A DNA stretch of 64,000 nucleotides from Hydrogenophaga sp. BPS33 (GTDB lineage Bacteria; Pseudomonadota; Gammaproteobacteria; Burkholderiales; Burkholderiaceae_C). The stretch lies in contig NZ_CP044549.1 of NCBI RefSeq assembly GCF_009859475.1, forward strand, positions 6,129,501 to 6,193,500, written 5' to 3'. The position numbers and the translations under genes were made by a program. Numbering within the stretch: position 1 is the first letter of the stretch; every line of letters starts with the position of its first letter. The notes beneath the pieces are model-generated. The model was not told the DNA's origin, did not search any database, and saw only the letters and a program-made list of their open reading frames with translations. Below are positions 45,713 to 55,232 of the stretch, in pieces.

Positions 45713-46268
45713 CGGCGGTTGCTGCCGGTGGTGCTTGCGCACCGAACGTGCGATCTGCGCCACGTTGCAGTCATTCAGTGTTTCGGCTTGCAGGCAGCGG
45801 TGCCGCGGCTAGGCCGCCGCTATCGGCTAAGCGCGGACCCTTCGTTAGAGGCGATTGGCCCGCCGTGAACATTAGAGCGACTCGGCCTGCGGCGATGACG
45901 TAGAAGGCGCGAACTTAATCTTGGTCATATCCGGCACATAGGCGTAGTGGACCGGGCACTCAGAACGAGGTTTCTCCACAGCGGACAGGATGATTGGGAA
46001 ACTAGCTGCTCGATATTGCTCTAGAGATAGGATGAAGGTTCCCTCTGCAACGTATCGCAGATAGGTTGTGATTTCTTGCATCTCCTCATGCACGTAGACT
46101 TGCTCAACATTGTCGCGATCCACAATGCCCCAGACTGGCAAGCCGATCTGACCATTTGGTAATACCCTGAAGTTGTATATCTCAGTCCTTTTGCTCTCTT
46201 CGCGGATGTGCTCTGCGTGGTTTCGTAGCTCAACAATGCGCCTCACAAGGACTGCCTGTTCAACTACG

Positions 46269-46275
46269 AACTGCA
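46269..46275. repeat. Target-site duplication, left copy (AACTGCA)
   Basis: Direct repeat AACTGCA next to the left terminal repeat of the IS4-type element. The identical right copy is at 47606-47612. Removing one copy with the element restores the reading frame of the host gene. Confidence 0.85.
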
Positions 46276-47605
46276 CCACTACTGTCCGGTTAAAAGTCGA
46301 ACAAATTCAATTGGTTAACGGCGTCGGGCATATCGGTCTGGGACGCGTCGGCCTGCAAGGCGCATGAAATCTCGGTTTTCTCGAAGACCGACACCGACAA
46401 GATCTGTAGACATGTGTAAAGCGAGACATCGAGTTGAAGCTCCTTCTTGACGATGGCAATGAGCACGTAGGTGGCCACGGCACACCACACCTGCGTCTTC
46501 ACGGCGTTCTCGCTGTTGCCGAGAAACTTCTTGATGCGCAGATGCTGCTTGATCCATTTGAAGAACAGCTCGACTCGCCAGCGGCTCTTGTACAGCGCGG
46601 CGATCGTCAGCGCCGGCAGCGCCGTGTTGTTGGTCAGGAAGATCAGTGTTTTGCCGGACTCGGGATCCTTGAATCGCACACGCCGCAAATGCTCGGGATA
46701 CTTCTTGGCCGAGTAGTGACCGTTGAGCATGACCTGCTGGTCGCTGATGACGCCAGTGCTGCGGTCGGTGGGTGCCGAGTAGACACGTCTGGCATCCATC
46801 GGCGACTTCGCGCGCGTAACGAAGAAGGCGCCAGCCTGGTGCAGCGCATACAGCCGTGCGAAGTCCACATAGCCGCGATCCATCACGTAGAACGCACCGG
46901 CCTCGAAACTCAGCATGTCCAGCACGTTCACGTCGTGCAGCTTGCCATCGCTGATGTGGATGAAGGCCGGGATAGCGCCGCGCAGATCCAGCAGCGTGTG
47001 CAGCTTGATGGCCGCCTTGGTCGATCGAAACGGTGCCCAGTCGAACAGGCTCAAGCACAGATCGATGGTGCTGGAGTCCAGCGCATAGACCGTGTTGTCC
47101 AAGTCGACGCCGAGCGCATCGTTCGCGTACAGCTTGCGTGCGCGCCGGATCAGCAAGGCAGCCAGGTCCGACCAGATGCGCCAGTCGCGCGATTCGTTGG
47201 CGTCGGCCAGCGTGGAGCGCTTGACCGCCGAGCGAAACCCCATCGCATACAGCTTGCCGGCATTGGCCGACAAGCTGGCCTCGATGTCGCGCAGACTCTC
47301 TCGCCAAGTCAGCTGCGCGAAGGCCATCGCCCGGAACTGCTCGGCGCACGACAGCGCTCGCACACCCGAGTTGCCTCCATGGCGCTGCACGATGCGCGCG
47401 AAGCTGGTCCATGGGACGAACTCCATGATCTGAGAAAACAAGGTCTTGCCGATGTGCACGCGCTTCCCCAGAGACAGTCAAGCCCGGGAAAGTACGCGGT
47501 TTTGGAAGAGCGAAGTTCAAATCGGCACCAAACGAAATCGGTCTGCAACCCGCGCCAATGCTTGATCTCAGGCTCGGCGCGGACCATTTAACCGGACAGT
47601 AGTGG
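46276..47605. mobile_element. Complete IS4-family insertion sequence (about 1,330 bp)
   Basis: Perfect 19-bp terminal inverted repeats (46276-46294 and 47587-47605, core ACTGTCCGGTTAAA) enclose a single full-length DDE transposase gene. Seven-base direct repeats flank it. Intact ends, an intact transposase frame and an exact target duplication point to a recent insertion. The element interrupts the HEPN-like gene. The base CCA shared after both duplications means the exact outer boundary could shift by up to three bases. Confidence 0.92.
46290..47459 (-). CDS. IS4-family transposase
   Basis: 389 residues. The N-terminal DUF4372-like region (FSQIMEFVPWTSFARIVQRHGG, SCAEQFRAMAFAQLTWRESLRDIE) leads to the DDE catalytic core: first Asp in YALDSSTIDLC, second Asp in FYVMDRGYVDFARL, and the Tyr-x2-Arg-x3-Glu-x6-Lys signature (YKSRWRVELFFKWIK) of IS4-family enzymes. 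The gene is complete and lies within the 19-bp inverted repeats. Its 3' end runs to within the left repeat, as is common in compact insertion sequences. Confidence 0.94.
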   Translation of the reverse strand: MHIGKTLFSQIMEFVPWTSFARIVQRHGGNSGVRALSCAEQFRAMAFAQLTWRESLRDIEASLSANAGKLYAMGFRSAVKRSTLADANESRDWRIWSDLAALLIRRARKLYANDALGVDLDNTVYALDSSTIDLCLSLFDWAPFRSTKAAIKLHTLLDLRGAIPAFIHISDGKLHDVNVLDMLSFEAGAFYVMDRGYVDFARLYALHQAGAFFVTRAKSPMDARRVYSAPTDRSTGVISDQQVMLNGHYSAKKYPEHLRRVRFKDPESGKTLIFLTNNTALPALTIAALYKSRWRVELFFKWIKQHLRIKKFLGNSENAVKTQVWCAVATYVLIAIVKKELQLDVSLYTCLQILSVSVFEKTEISCALQADASQTDMPDAVNQLNLFDF

Positions 47606-47612
47606 AACTGCA
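47606..47612. repeat. Target-site duplication, right copy (AACTGCA)
   Basis: Right partner of the duplication at 46269-46275, directly outside the right terminal repeat of the IS4-family element. Confidence 0.85.
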
Positions 47613-48380
47613 CCAGCGTTGAATCTTGGGAAAGCGCGGCTGCAAGCGTCTTGCTGAGGTGATCAAAATTGGAGTCTTCTTTAAGATCTGCGAACAGACG
47701 GGGAATACCGCAGATGGCGCGCACGACCTTGTTGGCGCCGATGAGGAAGTTGTTGGCCTCAGGGTGAAGGTCTGCGACTTGTGGGAATGGATTGAAGCCC
47801 CTGCCATGGTTGTCTCGAGGAAGCTCGTTGCGCTCGATCTTTCCGGTGATTTCCATAACAGCGGCATTGATGCGCAGAGCGATCTGCTCGCACTGCAGTA
47901 AGTCTTCCTTGACCTTGTGCATGTGTCGCAGGACTTTGTCTTTATCTACACCATCAGGGAGTTGCACACTCTTCAGAAGTTCGCTGCTCTGGATGACCAA
48001 CCGCGACACGATTTCGTTGGCCGATCCCGCTCTGATGTTTACGGTGCTGACCCAGGGCGCGTTTGGATTCGTACGCTGCGGGTCAATGTCTTCGGGGCTC
48101 CGGAGCTGACTAGTGGCATCAGCTTTGTACATCTCAAGGAAGTTGCCGAAGCTCACCACGCTGATGATCGGCCCCGTTCCCTCTTTAAACGTGAAGCTGC
48201 CGGCCCCATCACGCGAGGGCATTGGTACCTTGGGCGGTTCGTACTTCTTGGCAATCAAATGATTTCCTTCAGCACAGTAGATCTGCACCAATGACGAGTG
48301 CGATTTCTTTCGTGCATTTCATCCACAGACACTGCTTACACCTCCAGCGTATCTCAAGCCCACAAGATGAAGCTCACACA

Positions 48381-48827
48381 TCAAAATCCCGCCGCCCGCT
48401 TCAGCAACTCCAGAACGGCCCCCTCACCAAGCCGACCTACCGCACGCCCGAGCACATCCATCATGTCCGAGCCGGGCTCGTCGAAAACCAGCGCTTCCCC
48501 CGTCTTAACAGTGAAGTGGTGAGCCATGTGCTGCATCTCCAACCTCGTCTCCTTGGAATGCGAGGCGATATGGTGCAACTCCACATACCGCGCGATGGCC
48601 AGGCTAGCGACGTACACAGCCAACACCGCAGTGCGCCGTCCCGGGTCACCCTGCCATAGCACAGACACGAACTCGTCTGACGCATCCTCTGTCCCATGGA
48701 AGGGGAGGATGAGCGTTCCATCGACAAGTGACCGAGCGCACCATTGGCCGTTTACCCGTTCGCCAACGTACGAGGGCATCAAGTTTGCGATGAACGCAAT
48801 GATCCGTTCATTGCTACCTTCTTCCAT
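48381..48827 (-). CDS. Hypothetical protein of the accessory island
   Basis: 148 residues, no signal peptide. A central hydrophobic/helical part (RRTAVLAVYVASLAIARYVELHHIA) is followed by a His-rich stretch (EMQHMAHHFTV) and a C-terminal helix (LGRAVGRLGEGAVLELL). I do not recognise a family. It lies 90 bp upstream of the disrupted HEPN-like gene in the same direction, so the two may have formed an operon. No nucleotidyltransferase motif is visible, so it is not an obvious MNT partner. Confidence 0.6.
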   Translation of the reverse strand: MEEGSNERIIAFIANLMPSYVGERVNGQWCARSLVDGTLILPFHGTEDASDEFVSVLWQGDPGRRTAVLAVYVASLAIARYVELHHIASHSKETRLEMQHMAHHFTVKTGEALVFDEPGSDMMDVLGRAVGRLGEGAVLELLKRAAGF

Positions 48828-49030: not shown

Positions 49031-49273
49031 TCAAATCTTCGCCCCCTTGACGTTGGGGAAGCGCTTCATGTCGGCAATCTCGTCGTACAACAGCCGTCGC
49101 ACCTTGAACTTCACCACCTTGCCAGCGGGACCGTCGAGGTGATTCAGCGCCATGACAGGGCGCCCTACCGCCTTCGCTATGGGCCTTTCCCTCTTGAGTA
49201 CCGAAGTCAGCTGCGCCGTCCTCGTAGATGTAGATAGAGTTGCACCGGGGCAACTTGGCTGGACGTTGCTCAT
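49031..49273 (-). CDS. Small hypothetical protein, possibly degraded
   Basis: 80 residues, starting nine bases after the ASCH gene stop. The first 25 residues look noncoding (many Ser/Thr), while the rest (KRERPIAKAVGRPVMALNHL, then VVKFKVRRLLYDEIADMKRF) looks protein-like. In another frame the 5' part reads CNSIYIYEDGAADFG, so a frameshifted fragment is possible. No family is recognised. Co-direction with the ASCH and GNAT-PIN genes suggests it may belong to the same unit. Confidence 0.4.
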   Translation of the reverse strand: MSNVQPSCPGATLSTSTRTAQLTSVLKRERPIAKAVGRPVMALNHLDGPAGKVVKFKVRRLLYDEIADMKRFPNVKGAKI

Positions 49274-49279
49274 GGCGTA

Positions 49280-49714
49280 TCACTGCTCCATTGAAAGTCG
49301 CAGCTTGATCGACGAATCAGTCTTGAGGCGACAGTAAAACTGCGGTGGATGGAAGCCAGGCATTGCCGCCCGTAGAGCATCAAGCGTGATTGGCGCTTTC
49401 AATTTCCTTGAACCAGAAAGTGCCATCGCCGTCGCTACAACAGTCCCGTCAAAGTAGTTCATAAATTCGGACTTGCTGAGGCCTGAGACAGGCCCGTACT
49501 TACGCCATACGGTACTCGGCGCAGCCGAGTAGGTCTTTCCCACTGTCGCAAAACCAACCACCGCTCCGACGGGCTTCTTGACGTAGAGCCAAACGGTTGA
49601 ACCAGGCTCAACATGCATAGTTCGGCGTCTGAGCTCCACTTGCTTGGTCCCTACGAGGATGTTAGTTGCATGGCGCTCGTCAAGTGATATGAGCACATGC
49701 TGGGTCGGTTGCAT
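49280..49714 (-). CDS. ASCH-domain protein (PUA-like nucleic-acid reader)
   Basis: 144 residues. The start at 49714 overlaps the stop of the GNAT-PIN gene (TGATG). The N-terminal part contains the ASCH-type signature G-x-K-x-x-E-x-R exactly (GTKQVELR, residues 22-29) in a PUA-like beta-barrel: VLISLDERHATNIL, VWLYVKKPVGAVVGFATVG, and a C-terminal PPQFYCRL strand. ASCH/EVE/PUA domains bind RNA or modified bases, and some are nucleases. Tight coupling to a PIN-containing protein suggests a functional pair. The ligand is unknown. Confidence 0.78.
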   Translation of the reverse strand: MQPTQHVLISLDERHATNILVGTKQVELRRRTMHVEPGSTVWLYVKKPVGAVVGFATVGKTYSAAPSTVWRKYGPVSGLSKSEFMNYFDGTVVATAMALSGSRKLKAPITLDALRAAMPGFHPPQFYCRLKTDSSIKLRLSMEQ

Positions 49715-51873
49715 CAAAGGCCTTTGTCTAGGATCGCCTGAACCTGCTCGGAAGACAGTCGTTGGCTGGAAATGAGTTGGTGAGCTTCGCCGCACCGTAT
49801 GCTTTTGAGTTCGTGTAGAGGAACAGGTCTCGGCAAGCGCAGCACATTGTCGAACACAGTGATGGTCTTGGTCTTCGAGACCCCAATGCTTGAGAGTTGG
49901 CTGCGGTCCAACACGGAGGGTGCCAAGTCGCTGGCCTGCATTCCAGACTCATCACGAAGGTAGGCCTGCAATACACGCCCAACCGCAATGACAGCGCCAG
50001 CGCCTTTGTTCTTAACGGACTCATAGAAGAACATCAGATCGCCGCGGGAAAAGTTTCTCAATGTTTTCTTGTCACTCAAGTAGTGGCGCAAAGGGGCGAG
50101 TTGGGCCTTGCCGCGAGGGAGGAATGAGTCCTGCGGCGAATCTGCCAGGAGGTGCTCTTCAAACTGCTTTCGGATGGGGACCATCACCCCCTCTCGCCCC
50201 GGCAGACACAGTAGCATTGGGGCTAGCAGGGACTCCAGCTTGAACATAGGAACAAGGACCTTTTGACCATCTGGTCTGAGGACTGAAATTTGCTGATCGA
50301 CATGTCGGAATGGGGGAGGATCCTGGGGTAAACCGATTTTTCCCACGGTCGCCAGCGCTTCGCGGCCCGAAGTCCAACTTCGTTCGGTTAAACGACCCTT
50401 TGCAACGATCTTTTGTAAGTCGTTTGGCGTTGATGGGGACGCAACATAGCCAAACGTAGCTGCAACTTCTCGAAGCGAGGCCTGACGCGCGGGACAACTC
50501 AACCGTACACGGCCGATCTCGCCAGGCTTCACGATGCTCAGCACATGTCTGAGCAGGGACTGCGCAATTTCATGAGCGTCCTTCGGGCTCTCTGCGACGG
50601 CGGCATAAGCGCGAATTTCAAGGCCTCGAATTTTCGCCGGCAATACTAGGTAGCCAGCAACCACGCCATTCAAGCGTGCCACATGTCGTATGCAGGCCGA
50701 GCTGCCGGTGTCGGTTGCTGCCCACTCGCTAATTTGGGTTGCTGTGTCGATACCTAACGCCGTCAGCAACCGCCGAATGGCGACTGTGTCCCCGGCTGAA
50801 GCAACTTGCATTTCAATGAGGTCGGCGCCATGCGCTTCGTGAACTACTGAGCTTGCCGTGTGGTCTGGCTCGACTTGAAACAGCTCCGGCGATATGGCGT
50901 CCACGCCAAACCGCTGCCTGAGTTCAGGCGATCGATCTAGGATTCGTCCATCGCTTGTAATGAAACCTGGCAGACCGTGGTGAATGGCGGTCGCAAGATG
51001 CATCAGGTCAGATCTGTCGTTGTCCGACAGCGAGTCCGAGGCGTGGCGCTCTGGGAACACTAGCGAGGCAAGCATCGGCGATAAACGCGCCCACTCCTCA
51101 TCGGGCGGCGTCGCGAACTTCGGAAGAGTTCCTGCGAAAGAGAGCATTGGGTCTGTCTTGCCTTCGCGAGCGGTGCGCTTCAACTCCGTCACTACTTCGC
51201 TGCTAACTGCCAGGGCACATGCTTGCAGTCTCTCCGCCCTAAAGACGCTCATGGCTAACTCATGTCGGGGCCGACGAGGCCCCAAGTCGAAGAGTACGTT
51301 CAAATCCAGCAGATAAAGCGGCTTCGCCACGCCGCCGGCGATATCCAAGCCAAGTGGATCGGCGGCACTGATTCCGCTGGAAGCAAAAAGTTGAGGCGAA
51401 TCAAGCTCATGGGCTCGAACCACGATCATGCGATTTCGACTGGCACCTCCAACTGCAACCCGTTGAGCGTAAAACCCCTGTGCTTCCCAAAACATGTTGG
51501 CATCTCGTAGGTCTTCAGCGACGCGTGCATGAATTGAAATGAACTGCCACTCGGTCAGCATGTGCTTCATCGCGTTCAGCAGCGTCTGTCCGATGCTCCG
51601 ACCCCGATGCGTCTTGGGCACGTATATTTGCCGCACATGCGCCTTGGGAAAGCGCAGGTCGAACAACAGGTGGCCGGCATAGAACTCGCCAGTACTGCCT
51701 GATGCCAGTGCCACAAACAATTGTCCCTTGCGGCAGAAGTCTGCATACACGCTGCGTGAGAAGAAGCCAAGGGCATCCCTGTCGCTGTCTGCGGCCTGCA
51801 CCACCTCGCCCAAGAGTACCGAGACGGAGCTTGGGTCCGTGAGTACTTTGATCGAGAAGCCGTTGGTTTTCAT
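49714..51873 (-). CDS. GNAT-PIN-GNAT-like-PUA-like multidomain protein
   Basis: 719 residues from the ATG at 51873 (GGGGGAG upstream). Residues 1-155 form a GNAT acetyltransferase (RQIYVPKTHRGRSIGQTLL with the acetyl-CoA loop RGRSIG). Residues 186-320 form a PIN nuclease domain with the expected acidic residues D190 (LLDLNVLFDL), E226, D289 (RSDLMHLATAI) and D308 (ITSDGRIL). Residues about 355-485 look like a second, GNAT-like domain. Residues about 605-715 look PUA/EVE/ASCH-like (SRGDLMFFYESVKNKGAGAVIAVGRV). PIN domains cut RNA and GNATs acetylate small molecules, proteins or aminoacyl-tRNA. The combination suggests an RNA-targeting toxin or defence function (inference). Confidence 0.82.
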   Translation of the reverse strand: MKTNGFSIKVLTDPSSVSVLLGEVVQAADSDRDALGFFSRSVYADFCRKGQLFVALASGSTGEFYAGHLLFDLRFPKAHVRQIYVPKTHRGRSIGQTLLNAMKHMLTEWQFISIHARVAEDLRDANMFWEAQGFYAQRVAVGGASRNRMIVVRAHELDSPQLFASSGISAADPLGLDIAGGVAKPLYLLDLNVLFDLGPRRPRHELAMSVFRAERLQACALAVSSEVVTELKRTAREGKTDPMLSFAGTLPKFATPPDEEWARLSPMLASLVFPERHASDSLSDNDRSDLMHLATAIHHGLPGFITSDGRILDRSPELRQRFGVDAISPELFQVEPDHTASSVVHEAHGADLIEMQVASAGDTVAIRRLLTALGIDTATQISEWAATDTGSSACIRHVARLNGVVAGYLVLPAKIRGLEIRAYAAVAESPKDAHEIAQSLLRHVLSIVKPGEIGRVRLSCPARQASLREVAATFGYVASPSTPNDLQKIVAKGRLTERSWTSGREALATVGKIGLPQDPPPFRHVDQQISVLRPDGQKVLVPMFKLESLLAPMLLCLPGREGVMVPIRKQFEEHLLADSPQDSFLPRGKAQLAPLRHYLSDKKTLRNFSRGDLMFFYESVKNKGAGAVIAVGRVLQAYLRDESGMQASDLAPSVLDRSQLSSIGVSKTKTITVFDNVLRLPRPVPLHELKSIRCGEAHQLISSQRLSSEQVQAILDKGL

Positions 51874-52237
51874 AACTCCCCCAGTTTGATTTTGCGACAA
51901 CTGTAACGGCAAGTGTGGCTTTGGTGCCCCAGTGAAAATCTGGTGCACTAGCTCTAGGTGGCCCGCTCCATACGGCGCTGCCGTTCGGCATCTGGATAGC
52001 CCCCCTTTCCACCTCCGCCCTCGCAACTTAGCGGCTCGACCATCGTTCGAAGGCTGAGTGGGGGATGACTGGCAGACTCTTCCCGTCGGAGCCGCGGTTC
52101 GCGGAGTCAATCGGTGACGGCTTTGTTCGCTTCGCCGACATTCGGTGGCGAATTTCGACTGGCAGCACTCAGCCTCAAGCAGCCGCTCGTCCGAACTATG
52201 GAGGATCGACCCTTCCCGACTGTCTCGCCCCCGTGGC
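51874..52237. other. Intergenic stretch without recognisable genes
   Basis: This 364-bp stretch lies between the divergent GNAT-PIN gene and the structured element. It should hold the promoter of the GNAT-PIN gene. No convincing coding frame, repeat or RNA was seen. Confidence 0.5.
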
Positions 52238-52471
52238 TATACTCCGCCCGTCAAACCCAAAAAAGGTTTGATCGGGCTGGACACCCGTCGAAATCCCTGT
52301 AGCGAAAGCTGCAGGATCTACCTAACGCAGAGTCTGCGGCTTTCTCGCTTGAGCCCCTTTTTGGCGGCCCGAGCGGGGAGCTCTCGGGCTCGCCGGTTTC
52401 CGCAGGGATTTCACGGTTGTCCAACCCGCATCGGGCCGCCGCCCCTTACGCATCAAAGCAAAGGGCGGCGG
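52238..52471 (+). ncRNA. Strongly structured noncoding element (candidate ncRNA or long leader)
   Basis: A TATACT -10-like hexamer (52238-52243) is followed at once by a 12-pair hairpin (52246-52277, CAAAAAA loop, one bulge). A long stem (52273-52299 with 52403-52428, about 24 pairs, two mismatches, one bulge) encloses about 100 bases with further hairpins: CGCAG-AGT-CTGCG (52326-52338) and GGCG-GCCCGAG / CTCGGGC-T-CGCC (52363-52394). A GNRA-type hairpin CCTGTAGC-GAAA-GCTGCAGG (52295-52314) competes with the long stem. A final hairpin CCGCCGCCCCTT / AAGGGCGGCGG (52436-52471) ends it, 22 bases before the ribosome site of the next gene. The class is not recognised. The -35 box is weak. Confidence 0.55.
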
Positions 52472-52508: not shown

Positions 52509-52811
52509 ATGAATCAACAACTCACGGCCGCCGCCCAATGCGTCTCGTTGTCGGGCAAGGCATCTGAGCAGGCGATGGATCTGTCGTACAAGTTCAAGTC
52601 GTTCGTCGCGCTACAGCGCTTCGTTCAACCCCAGTACGAAGACGAGGCGCAAGACCACGTGCCAGTCACGCGCGCCGAGATGGACGCAATGTTGGAAACA
52701 CTCAATGCCGACGTGCTGCGGCGCATGGATGCGCTCGCAGACACCTTGACGGTGCTGGGTGCGCAGGCGCGGTTGAGCGTGACATCGCTTGCGCCTTCGC
52801 CATCTTCTTGA
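52509..52811 (+). CDS. Small hypothetical helical protein behind the structured element
   Basis: 100 residues, with an AGGGAG ribosome site ten bases before the ATG. It is polar and probably alpha-helical (KFKSFVALQRFV, TRAEMDAMLETLNADVLRRMDALADTL) with a Ser/Pro-rich tail. There is no signal peptide or membrane segment. I do not recognise a family. It sits directly downstream of the structured noncoding element, which could act as its leader and control its translation. Confidence 0.6.
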   Translation: MNQQLTAAAQCVSLSGKASEQAMDLSYKFKSFVALQRFVQPQYEDEAQDHVPVTRAEMDAMLETLNADVLRRMDALADTLTVLGAQARLSVTSLAPSPSS

Positions 52812-53358: not shown

Positions 53359-54992
53359 TCATACGGCCCAATACCTCCGCCATCGATTGCTGCCTTCGAA
53401 ACGCACTGCTCCGCGTCGAATCAACTCGTCCAGCGTGCGCTTGATCTGCTTTGTGTGGATTTCGCCGCCCACGCGGTAGTGGACATCGCTGATCGCCGAG
53501 GCCGGATACCGCCCGAGGTCTTCCAACACAAGGGCAGCCAGACGGTGTGGTTCGATGCGCTTGAGCGTAGTGGTTGCATTGAAGTTCAGCGTGCGCAGCA
53601 GGCTCGGTTCGACGTAATAACGCGTACCCTGGGTGCGGCCAACAGTACCCACAAGTCGCCACTCCAGCAGACGCTTAAGCCAAGGCTGCAGCGCGTCCGC
53701 CGTCGGCAACTCCAGCGCTGCAAGCAACTCGCGGGCCGTCATGGCTTCGTGCTGCGCCAGCAAGCCGAGCGCAATACGCTCCCGCTGGCTGAGCGGATAG
53801 GTCTGTTCCGCCTTAACCATGAAGTCGATAGAGGCCGGAGCCAAAATGCGGCGGCGCACGGTGACTTGCACGCGGTCGTAGGCTTCGACCAGTTCCGGCA
53901 CTGGCCTCCCCTGCGAAAGGAGCACCTCGAACATTCTGTCGAAGCCACTGCCTTCCCGCTCCATCAGCTTCAAGTCATGGAACAGTCGGGCAAGGTGCTC
54001 GTTGCGTCGCACGGTGGTGTGCAGCACGTTTTGCGGAGTCACGCCCAGCGGCAGCGGTCCGGGGTTCACCACCTCAAGCTTGTCGGGGTGCAGGTTCAGA
54101 AAAATGTCGCCGCGTTGAGTGTAGGGACGATGCACCAGGGCATTGACCAGCAGCTCGCGTACAACCACCTCGTCGAAAGCAGGTACGTGCTGCCGAAAAA
54201 GCCCGTCAGGAAGTTCATACCGTTCACGGAAGTCGGGGACCTCTCGCCACACGGCTTCAATCAAGGCCATGGGGCTTAACGTGTGGTCGTCCCACACCAG
54301 CTTGTTCACCTTCTGGCCAAGATCGTCGAGTTTTATGAACTGGATCACCGGTGCAGTGGCGAGCTGAGCGCGCTGGCGCTGGAGTCCCATGCACAAAATG
54401 CCCAAGTGAGTGAGTAAAGGGCCTTGTGCGAGTTGGTAGTGGTCCAGCAGTTCGTCGTCGGTTTTCTCCTTAACCGACGCCTTTACCCGATCGAGGCGCG
54501 CAAGCGCTCCAGCAGGCTATCGCGCTGGGCAGAGTCCGCCTGCATGCGAGGCACGTTAAGAGTGGTCAACGTCTCCCACGGCAATGCGGCGCGTTCGTTC
54601 GCCAGCCGCATTACGTCGTCGCCGGTGACAGGCTTGCTTTGGTCGGCCACACGCAGAAAGTAATGGCCGTCGGTAGTAGACGCAACGCCCAGGGCGCGCG
54701 GGATACGTAGAGCAATGTACTGACCGCCATTAGGCGCAGTCACCACGTCCAGTAACGCAGTGACGTTGACGGTCCTTTCAGCCAGTTTGCGACGCAAGGT
54801 GTCGGGCAGCTCGGCTGGGATGCGCTGGCCGGCGGGAGGTTCAGCCTCCGCGTCCTCGATGCCCAACAGCAACTGTCCTCCCGTGGCGTTGGCAAAGGCG
54901 ATGCAATCCTTGGCGAGTTCGGGCCAGTCCGCGGTCTTGCCGGTGATCGCGCGCAACGACTTCTTATCTAGGAGATGGCCTTCCAAACTCAT
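53359..54992 (-). pseudogene. AlbA_2 (Schlafen-like)/GHKL ATP-binding regulator with a one-base frameshift
   Basis: The first frame (54992-54483, 169 residues) holds an AlbA_2 domain (DWPELAKDCIAFANATGGQLLLGIED). It stops after LLERLRASIG. A shift at about 54490 continues in another frame as DRVKASVKEKTDDELLDHY, then LAQGPLLTHLGILCMG, and on through the second open frame to 53359. The second part has a GHKL/RecG-like ATP-binding region (VVVRELLVNALVHRPY, GDIFLNLHPDKLEVVNPGPLP) and a winged-helix C-terminus. The joined product would be about 544 residues. A single missing G explains the break; it could be a true mutation or an assembly error. Confidence 0.82.
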
Positions 54993-55094
54993 GGGACGGC
55001 CTCTTGCGCTTTGACTGCCCCGTCTCGTATGTGCGGGAGCGCGTTTACCGACCCGACCGGCTGTCGATTCCGGGCGTTTTGCATGGGTCTGTAT

Positions 55095-55116
55095 GTTAAC
55101 GATTCGCATCGTCAAC
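55095..55116. promoter_or_regulatory. 22-bp dyad upstream of the AlbA_2 gene
   Basis: GTTAACGAT-TCGC-ATCGTCAAC has nine-base arms with one mismatch, about 100 bp upstream of the AlbA_2 gene start. The spacing and symmetry fit an operator for a dimeric regulator, possibly the AlbA_2 protein itself. No match to a known box was recognised. Confidence 0.4.
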
Positions 55117-55232
55117 AGGCACGCTCTTCTAACCATCCTGGACACTTTGGCGGTAGTTGCCCCACAGCTGAGATCGCGAACGCCTGCGCTCTTTTTAAGG
55201 CTCGCCAGGGTCGGACACACCCTTACCGAAAC

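Follow-up and report, generated by a model that had tools for sequence, protein, structure and literature searches.

What could a protein that carries two GNAT folds, a PIN domain and an EVE domain in one chain do together with an ASCH protein encoded immediately behind it? This question is raised by a pair of genes of Hydrogenophaga sp. BPS33 (genome of 6.77 Mb in 3 contigs), located within a stretch of 64,000 nucleotides of contig NZ_CP044549.1 (positions 6,129,501 to 6,193,500), hereafter called the window, to which all coordinates refer. Gene A (49714..51873 including the stop codon, minus strand) encodes 719 amino acids in the order GNAT-PIN-(degenerate GNAT)-EVE, as supported by full-length relatives and by an AlphaFold2 model (predicted local distance difference test score, pLDDT, 84.3; predicted template modelling score, pTM, 0.80). 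Gene B (49280..49714, minus strand) encodes a 144-residue ASCH protein, and its start codon overlaps the stop codon of gene A in the sequence TGATG. These gene positions, the overlap and the domain order are as given in the initial annotation of this DNA. As discussed below, we propose, with belief and doubt evenly balanced, that the pair is an accessory RNA-targeting conflict cassette, a long form of the (PIN)-GNAT-EVE plus ASCH class (candidate system PDC-M11 of the PADLOC models). The PDC prefix we take to mean phage defence candidate.

The relationship to this class is carried by the alignment of the whole chain. Residues 187-718 of the gene A protein are collinear with positions 3-490 of canonical PIN-GNAT-EVE (hhalign probability 97.9, E 6e-13; 98.7 in the same comparison with an earlier 7-sequence profile), and the order PIN, GNAT-like fold, EVE demanded by the class is present. 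The C-terminal EVE domain (residues ~562-718; 49720..50190, minus strand), a PUA-superfamily domain of the modified-base-reader type, was recognised by Pfam EVE above its cut-off at residues 589-712, by PDC-M11A and by hhalign against the canonical EVE domain (probability 98); of 24 relatives compared, 20 have an EVE part that is matched by one M11A model (E<=0.001). Gene B matches PDC-M11B over residues 6-133 of its 144 (E 3e-25). The text of Bell, Wolf and Koonin (2020; PMC7641849), which cites Iyer et al. (2013) on the class, treats (PIN)-GNAT-EVE proteins with ASCH partners as predicted toxin-antitoxin systems, no module having been characterised. There the ASCH partner occurs in almost all operons of the class and AAA_17 ATPases frequently, not always; PIN-GNAT-EVE genes are found near type I restriction systems and GNAT-EVE genes near prophages. 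The initial annotation took the two genes to be an accessory module of the conflict type that combines GNATs, an RNase-type domain and a pair of PUA-superfamily domains; this proposal agrees with that prediction and with PDC-M11, although the candidate system is not new, its class having been predicted earlier.

What was not found described is the rearranged long form. It shares with the class, as far as the text of Bell et al. (2020) presents it, the order PIN, GNAT fold, EVE, the ASCH partner, the accessory spread and the predicted toxin-antitoxin or defence role, and differs by an extra N-terminal GNAT and by an internal GNAT without the coenzyme A (CoA) motif. The same text puts PIN at the N-terminus and calls the middle domain GNAT-like, with no motif required, so the missing motif marks a variant; it has, figures aside, no wording for a GNAT-PIN order or a second GNAT, and no other paper on the long form was found in a literature search of running text outside bioRxiv and most subscription papers. 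The canonical set used for comparison comprised 117 PIN-GNAT-EVE and 3 GNAT-EVE rows (119 distinct), drawn from two sources, a PDC-M11A search across 398 genomes of the phylum and a protein search in which 120 of 1630 matches were listed, 113 of >=455 aa being used; among these 120 rows none is longer than 560 aa. PDC-M11A matches occurred in 55 of the 398 genomes, mostly as short single-GNAT matches and in four cases nearly full length. Four canonical and three GNAT-EVE loci were examined, the latter demonstrating that forms without PIN exist, and at one locus (L050:1234-3150) PIN-GNAT-EVE and ASCH form one chain of 638 residues. Relatives of canonical AAA partners were not seen beside the long form: five AAA proteins taken from canonical loci gave no tblastn match (E<=1e-3) in the window, the 45 related loci L004-L048 or the four viral contigs L110-L113, a result that leaves room for a more distant ATPase.

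The two GNAT domains of the long form differ in what they have kept. For this comparison 44 related loci were drawn from a collection of 84,980 species genomes, and 154 long-form rows were assembled (one from the window, 40 from these loci and 113 found by the protein search), 133 of them remaining as representatives under 90% mutual identity; the same CoA-loop patterns were applied to N-terminal, internal and canonical GNATs. The N-terminal GNAT acetyltransferase domain (residues ~6-158; 51400..51858, minus strand) carries the CoA-type motif R90-x4-G/A95, and R-x4-G/A was found at the CoA loop in 148 of 153 N-terminal and 114 of 120 canonical GNATs, compared with 20 of 154 internal ones. Its residues Q82 (133), R90 (129), G/A95 (132), N126 (128) and Y135 (122) are conserved among the 133 representatives. 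The signature xGx(K/R)xG, present in all 120 canonical GNATs, appeared in 15 of 153 N-terminal and none of the 154 internal domains. The internal GNAT-like domain (residues ~350-495; 50389..50826, minus strand) has mostly Pro at the place of the canonical Arg and Gly at the first Gly place in 38 of 154 rows, and the window copy likewise lacks the acetyl-CoA motif. Judged by these residues, most members of the family seem to have an active N-terminal GNAT, and the internal GNAT is best read as decayed in the long-form lineage, its fold kept and its CoA motif lost. Since the internal GNAT is without the motif, only the N-terminal one is expected to be an enzyme, and the acetyltransferase active site has apparently moved from the middle to the front of the protein. 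Of the "one or two acetyltransferases" initially annotated, only the first is thus retained as a predicted enzyme; the second lacks the motif in the window copy and in most relatives.

The equivalence of the internal and the canonical GNAT is drawn from the collinear whole-chain alignment together with the fold. Compared alone, the internal GNAT gave hhalign probabilities of 0.2-1.2 against the canonical GNAT, the N-terminal GNAT giving 25-32, and the internal profile returned weak acetyltransferase rows only when searched against the sequences of solved structures (best E 0.13). A recent duplication giving rise to the N-terminal and internal GNATs was unsupported (hhalign probability 0.4). 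A conjugative Pseudomonas plasmid (L090:4377-7009) carries in a row an ATP-binding protein, an N-acetyltransferase of GNAT-EVE size, ASCH and a separate GNAT gene; this last gene was considered as a source of the N-terminal GNAT and showed no similarity to it (E 0.50). A stand-alone GNAT-PIN family was also considered and discarded: a search with residues 1-335 gave 56 proteins, and the ten examined looked like cut or frame-broken pieces of long forms. Four of these ten (P0168, P0171-P0173) start at or just before PIN and are either truncations or true forms without the N-terminal GNAT.

The PIN RNase-type domain (residues ~186-332; 50878..51318, minus strand) was annotated initially with four acidic residues, and both the fold and the residues held in the present analysis. 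D190, E226 and D289 are found in all 133 representatives, and D308 is Asp in 129 and Glu in 4; together they presumably form the PIN metal site. Such near-invariance indicates that PIN has been kept as an enzyme would be. Profiles of PIN and EVE gave no usable match among the sequences of solved structures, and structure comparison of the whole gene A model showed no PIN or EVE row; as the N-terminal GNAT filled the whole list, these missing rows are no evidence against the two domains.

Considering the cassette as a conflict system, we hypothesize that the added N-terminal GNAT took over the acetyltransferase role and that the inherited internal GNAT may now serve as a scaffold joining PIN to EVE. 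RNA with an unusual or modified base would be recognised by EVE and by ASCH, which is made as a protein of its own, the N-terminal GNAT would acetylate an amine on such RNA or its aminoacyl group, and the PIN domain would cut the RNA, so that translation would stop in the infected or stressed cell; ASCH would serve as a translationally coupled subunit of specificity and restraint. The domain architecture, the conserved PIN acids, a CoA motif lost from one GNAT and present in the other, the coupling to ASCH and the patchy spread were observed directly, whereas in this scheme we infer the RNA target, the recognition of a modified base, the acetylation substrate, what triggers the system and its protective effect. 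That acetyl transfer matters is hinted at best by the presence, in both lineages, of a GNAT with a CoA-type motif, at different places in the chain. A bolder version, which we hold unlikely, is that the N-terminal GNAT writes an acetyl mark on a nucleobase or on tRNA, ASCH and EVE act as readers of modified bases, and PIN destroys RNA according to the status of the mark; part of the same idea is that gene B would retain the Lys/Arg pocket of the N4-acetylcytidine hydrolase family with its nucleophile lost. If that were true, two genes would do for RNA what restriction-modification does for DNA, and the apparent swap of the active GNAT from middle to front, taken with the altered ASCH pocket, would signify a changed mark.

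The initial annotation had suggested instead that acetylation controls the nuclease, for which no evidence was found. An N-terminal GNAT that acetylates the gene A protein itself or gene B, setting PIN on or off, would suit the presence of GNAT and PIN in one chain in the long forms, and in the model comparison the closest folds to this GNAT are those of protein N-terminal acetyltransferases, a result that many other GNATs would give as well. However, nothing specific was found to support such a switch, and canonical forms pair the GNAT with base-reader domains; GNAT-EVE forms exist without PIN, and the GNAT is therefore not there only for PIN. We regard this as decidedly unlikely.

ASCH follows gene A in 40 of the 44 loci. 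The remaining four contigs stop no more than 145 bases from where the gene A frame ends, three of them before gene A is complete; homologues, which the initial annotation had expected to be linked to ASCH and to accessory settings, are rare and ASCH-linked wherever the contig goes on. With start codons picked by script, the two frames overlap in 37 of 40 junctions (gaps of -1 to -35), and three gaps measure 2, 4 and 16 bases. The gene pair is also found in four of four viral contigs, with ASCH adjoining. In the pocket, all 44 long-form ASCH rows (43 distinct proteins, L004 appearing twice) have Trp at 42 and Phe at 126, whereas the seven canonical rows have Val, Ile or Leu at 42 and Ser at 126; gene B thus carries Trp42 and Phe126 in place of the aliphatic residue and Ser. 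At two loci (L035:12658-13092 and L113:4812-5186) a second ASCH with the canonical PPQS ending lies tail to tail with the long-form cassette. Canonical PIN-GNAT-EVE was not found at E<=1e-6 in loci bearing the long-form cassette, L035 and L113 included.

Such tight coupling, with overlap in nearly all junctions, may also be explained by a plain toxin-antitoxin pair, in which gene A is the toxin through PIN, GNAT or both, gene B is an ASCH antitoxin that blocks it and is lost under stress, and no reading of modified bases is needed. A classical type II PIN module (VapBC) has a small DNA-binding antitoxin gene. Gene B matches ASCH families only, with no helix-turn-helix or ribbon-helix-helix match, and no DNA-binding domain was recognised in it; homologous PDB chains are named helix-turn-helix proteins, yet the matched region is their ASCH stretch. 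The gene order at the window locus is toxin first, the EVE domain would be superfluous, and the ASCH fused into the same chain at L050 is unfit for a labile antitoxin. On the other hand, on a Rhizobium plasmid the gene just upstream of the GNAT gene, at the place of the ASCH match, encodes a helix-turn-helix protein, and the text of Bell et al. (2020) files the family with toxin-antitoxin systems and mentions fusions of HTH to ASCH. On balance, we consider this explanation possible, if doubtful.

Two characterised ASCH proteins bear on what gene B may do. It is homologous over residues 6-138 (E 1.4e-19) to the ASCH ribonuclease of Zymomonas mobilis (ZmASCH; 5guq, 5gus, 5y6b, 5y6c), which cuts single-stranded RNA by means of Tyr47, Lys53 and Ser128 (PMC5615036), and for which the available portion of that text mentions no GNAT or PIN partner, unlike gene B. 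Tyr47 is kept as Tyr44 of gene B. With YqfB of Escherichia coli, gene B shares the ASCH family and the Lys and Arg of the GxKxxxxR motif. According to the available text of PMC6972931, YqfB removes acetyl from N4-acetylcytidine using Thr24, Lys21 and Glu74. That gene B erases a mark set by the GNAT would be in line with its motif Lys and Arg, equivalent to Lys21 and Arg26 of YqfB by motif position rather than by computed alignment; however, all 51 rows (44 long-form, 7 canonical) have Glu where the catalytic Thr24 would stand, which breaks the published triad, and we consider erasure extremely unlikely.

The spread of the cassette is patchy. It was detected in 3 of 197 relatives and in 2 of 399 genomes of the order, the source genome being included in both counts; in the latter the other case is a partial match (E 3e-10), and since at most two candidates per genome were scored the count may be too low. 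Among Burkholderiaceae it occurs in 8 of 249 genomes, and a distant copy (31% identity) sits on a Caulobacter plasmid. With the five nearest loci (L005-L009) the window shares DNA similarity over the gene pair and nowhere else, starting at 49284-49446 and ending at 51795-51910, and no other open reading frame (ORF) of the window clustered with the 45 other loci compared. The low-GC setting initially noted was reproduced: guanine-cytosine content is 0.56-0.57 at 46-52 kb of the window, against 0.65-0.70 at 36-46 kb and 55-64 kb.

Neighbours at 21 loci (136 ORFs, none from the ten fixed-address loci described below) include Wadjet JetA, JetC and JetD, a type III methyltransferase, a type IIG restriction enzyme and SoFic; a comparison of ten ORFs assigned the type IIG enzyme to L009, JetC to L023, and both SoFic and the methyltransferase to L032. 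These 136 ORFs, of 164 picked from 24 loci (L035, L040, L044 and part of L036 and L037 being excluded), matched 128 PADLOC families, and 121 control ORFs from ten stretches of the source genome, left from 125 after the removal of four (three of which were very long), matched 30. The tally counts families rather than genes, with several models per gene and the first 25 families named, and the ORFs were picked by a heuristic based on GC at third codon positions (GC3); because of this counting, this picking and the one-genome control, the excess is only suggestive. The supposed link to defence islands holds for some loci: L009, L023 and L032 lie beside defence genes, whereas 10 of the 44 loci share one ordinary address.

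This address is one of several points that weigh against the proposed conflict role. In the ten loci (L012-L015, L019, L020, L026, L038, L039, L045; all Burkholderia or Paraburkholderia except L038, a metagenome-assembled genome of Rudaea) a LysR regulator and a membrane transporter, annotated on L012, come right after the cassette, which there occupies a fixed ordinary chromosomal position and not an island. At three of the 44 loci (L024, L026, L038) the coding sequence of gene A does not stay in one frame. The match of gene A to PDC-M11A is confined to residues 563-717, covering 125-162 positions near the C-terminus of models 376-501 long, compared with 719 aa in gene A. The strict motif Q/R-x2-G-x-G/A occurs in only 74 of 153 N-terminal GNATs (0 of 120 canonical, 0 of 154 internal), so that activity of the N-terminal domain is not certain, and 108 of 154 internal GNATs retain Ala at the last motif position. 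Gene B keeps only one of the three ZmASCH residues, with Lys53 replaced by Gly50 and Ser128 by Phe126 (across the 44 long-form rows Tyr in 44, Gly in 40 or Ala in 4, and Phe in 44), and RNase activity of gene B should therefore not be assumed. Finally, the literature search described above found no experiment on any PIN-GNAT-EVE protein.

That 10 of 44 loci have the cassette at one fixed position among ordinary genes would also be expected of a housekeeping enzyme of RNA maintenance or RNA modification that is patchy by chance. The rarity of the pair (3/197, 2/399, 8/249), the failure of every window neighbour besides the pair to cluster with any of 45 other loci, the Caulobacter plasmid copy and the copies in four viral contigs argue against such a role, which appears very unlikely to us. 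The fixed address in ten loci is observed although the cassette is rare in the family, and L018 and L041 share one of the two genes, LysR regulator or transporter.

Judging from the text of the 2020 paper, the (PIN)-GNAT-EVE/ASCH class had already been discussed in 2013, and the literature search found no test of it. In this respect the long-form lineage is a natural experiment on the role of the GNAT: that the inherited GNAT decayed where a GNAT with a CoA-type motif stands in front suggests that acetyl transfer, and not only a GNAT scaffold, is needed. The cassette is real, well delimited and worth a bench test; as a compact two-gene unit with sharp edges and a matched ASCH lineage, it is suited to settling which part writes, reads and cuts.

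Two ORFs that lie downstream of the pair, 49031-49273 (80 aa) and 48381-48827 (148 aa), were rejected as third members, having no blastp match at E<=1e-4 in related loci. Upstream of the pair, a Schlafen AlbA_2 plus RecG-C-type gene (53359-55220) lies in two frames, both pieces matching the phage family phrog_12156; as a cassette part it was likewise rejected, as it is split by a frameshift and has no match in related loci. Genes of this type bear the label COG2865 in the published neighbourhoods, a label that we assume to apply here as well. An insertion sequence at 46276-47605 encodes a DDE transposase (DUF4372, DDE_Tnp_1), has ends that form a perfect inverted repeat of 19 bases, is flanked on either side by AACTGCA, and sits between ORF pieces 47606-48291 and 45872-46279, which may be one interrupted gene. 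A C4 antisense RNA upstream of the pair (RF01695, 58 bits; 52357-52446, plus strand) is followed by an ORF of 100 aa (52509-52811, plus strand); as a cassette part the RNA was discarded, none being found at the gathering score in L005-L010. The source genome has 15 C4 matches above the family cut-off. Of eight C4 loci fetched, six (L092, L093, L096, L097, L098, which is the window's own, and L099) carry the 100-aa ORF or a relative at E<=3e-10, L094 gave a weak ORF match and L095 none; C4 and this ORF are a repeated unit.

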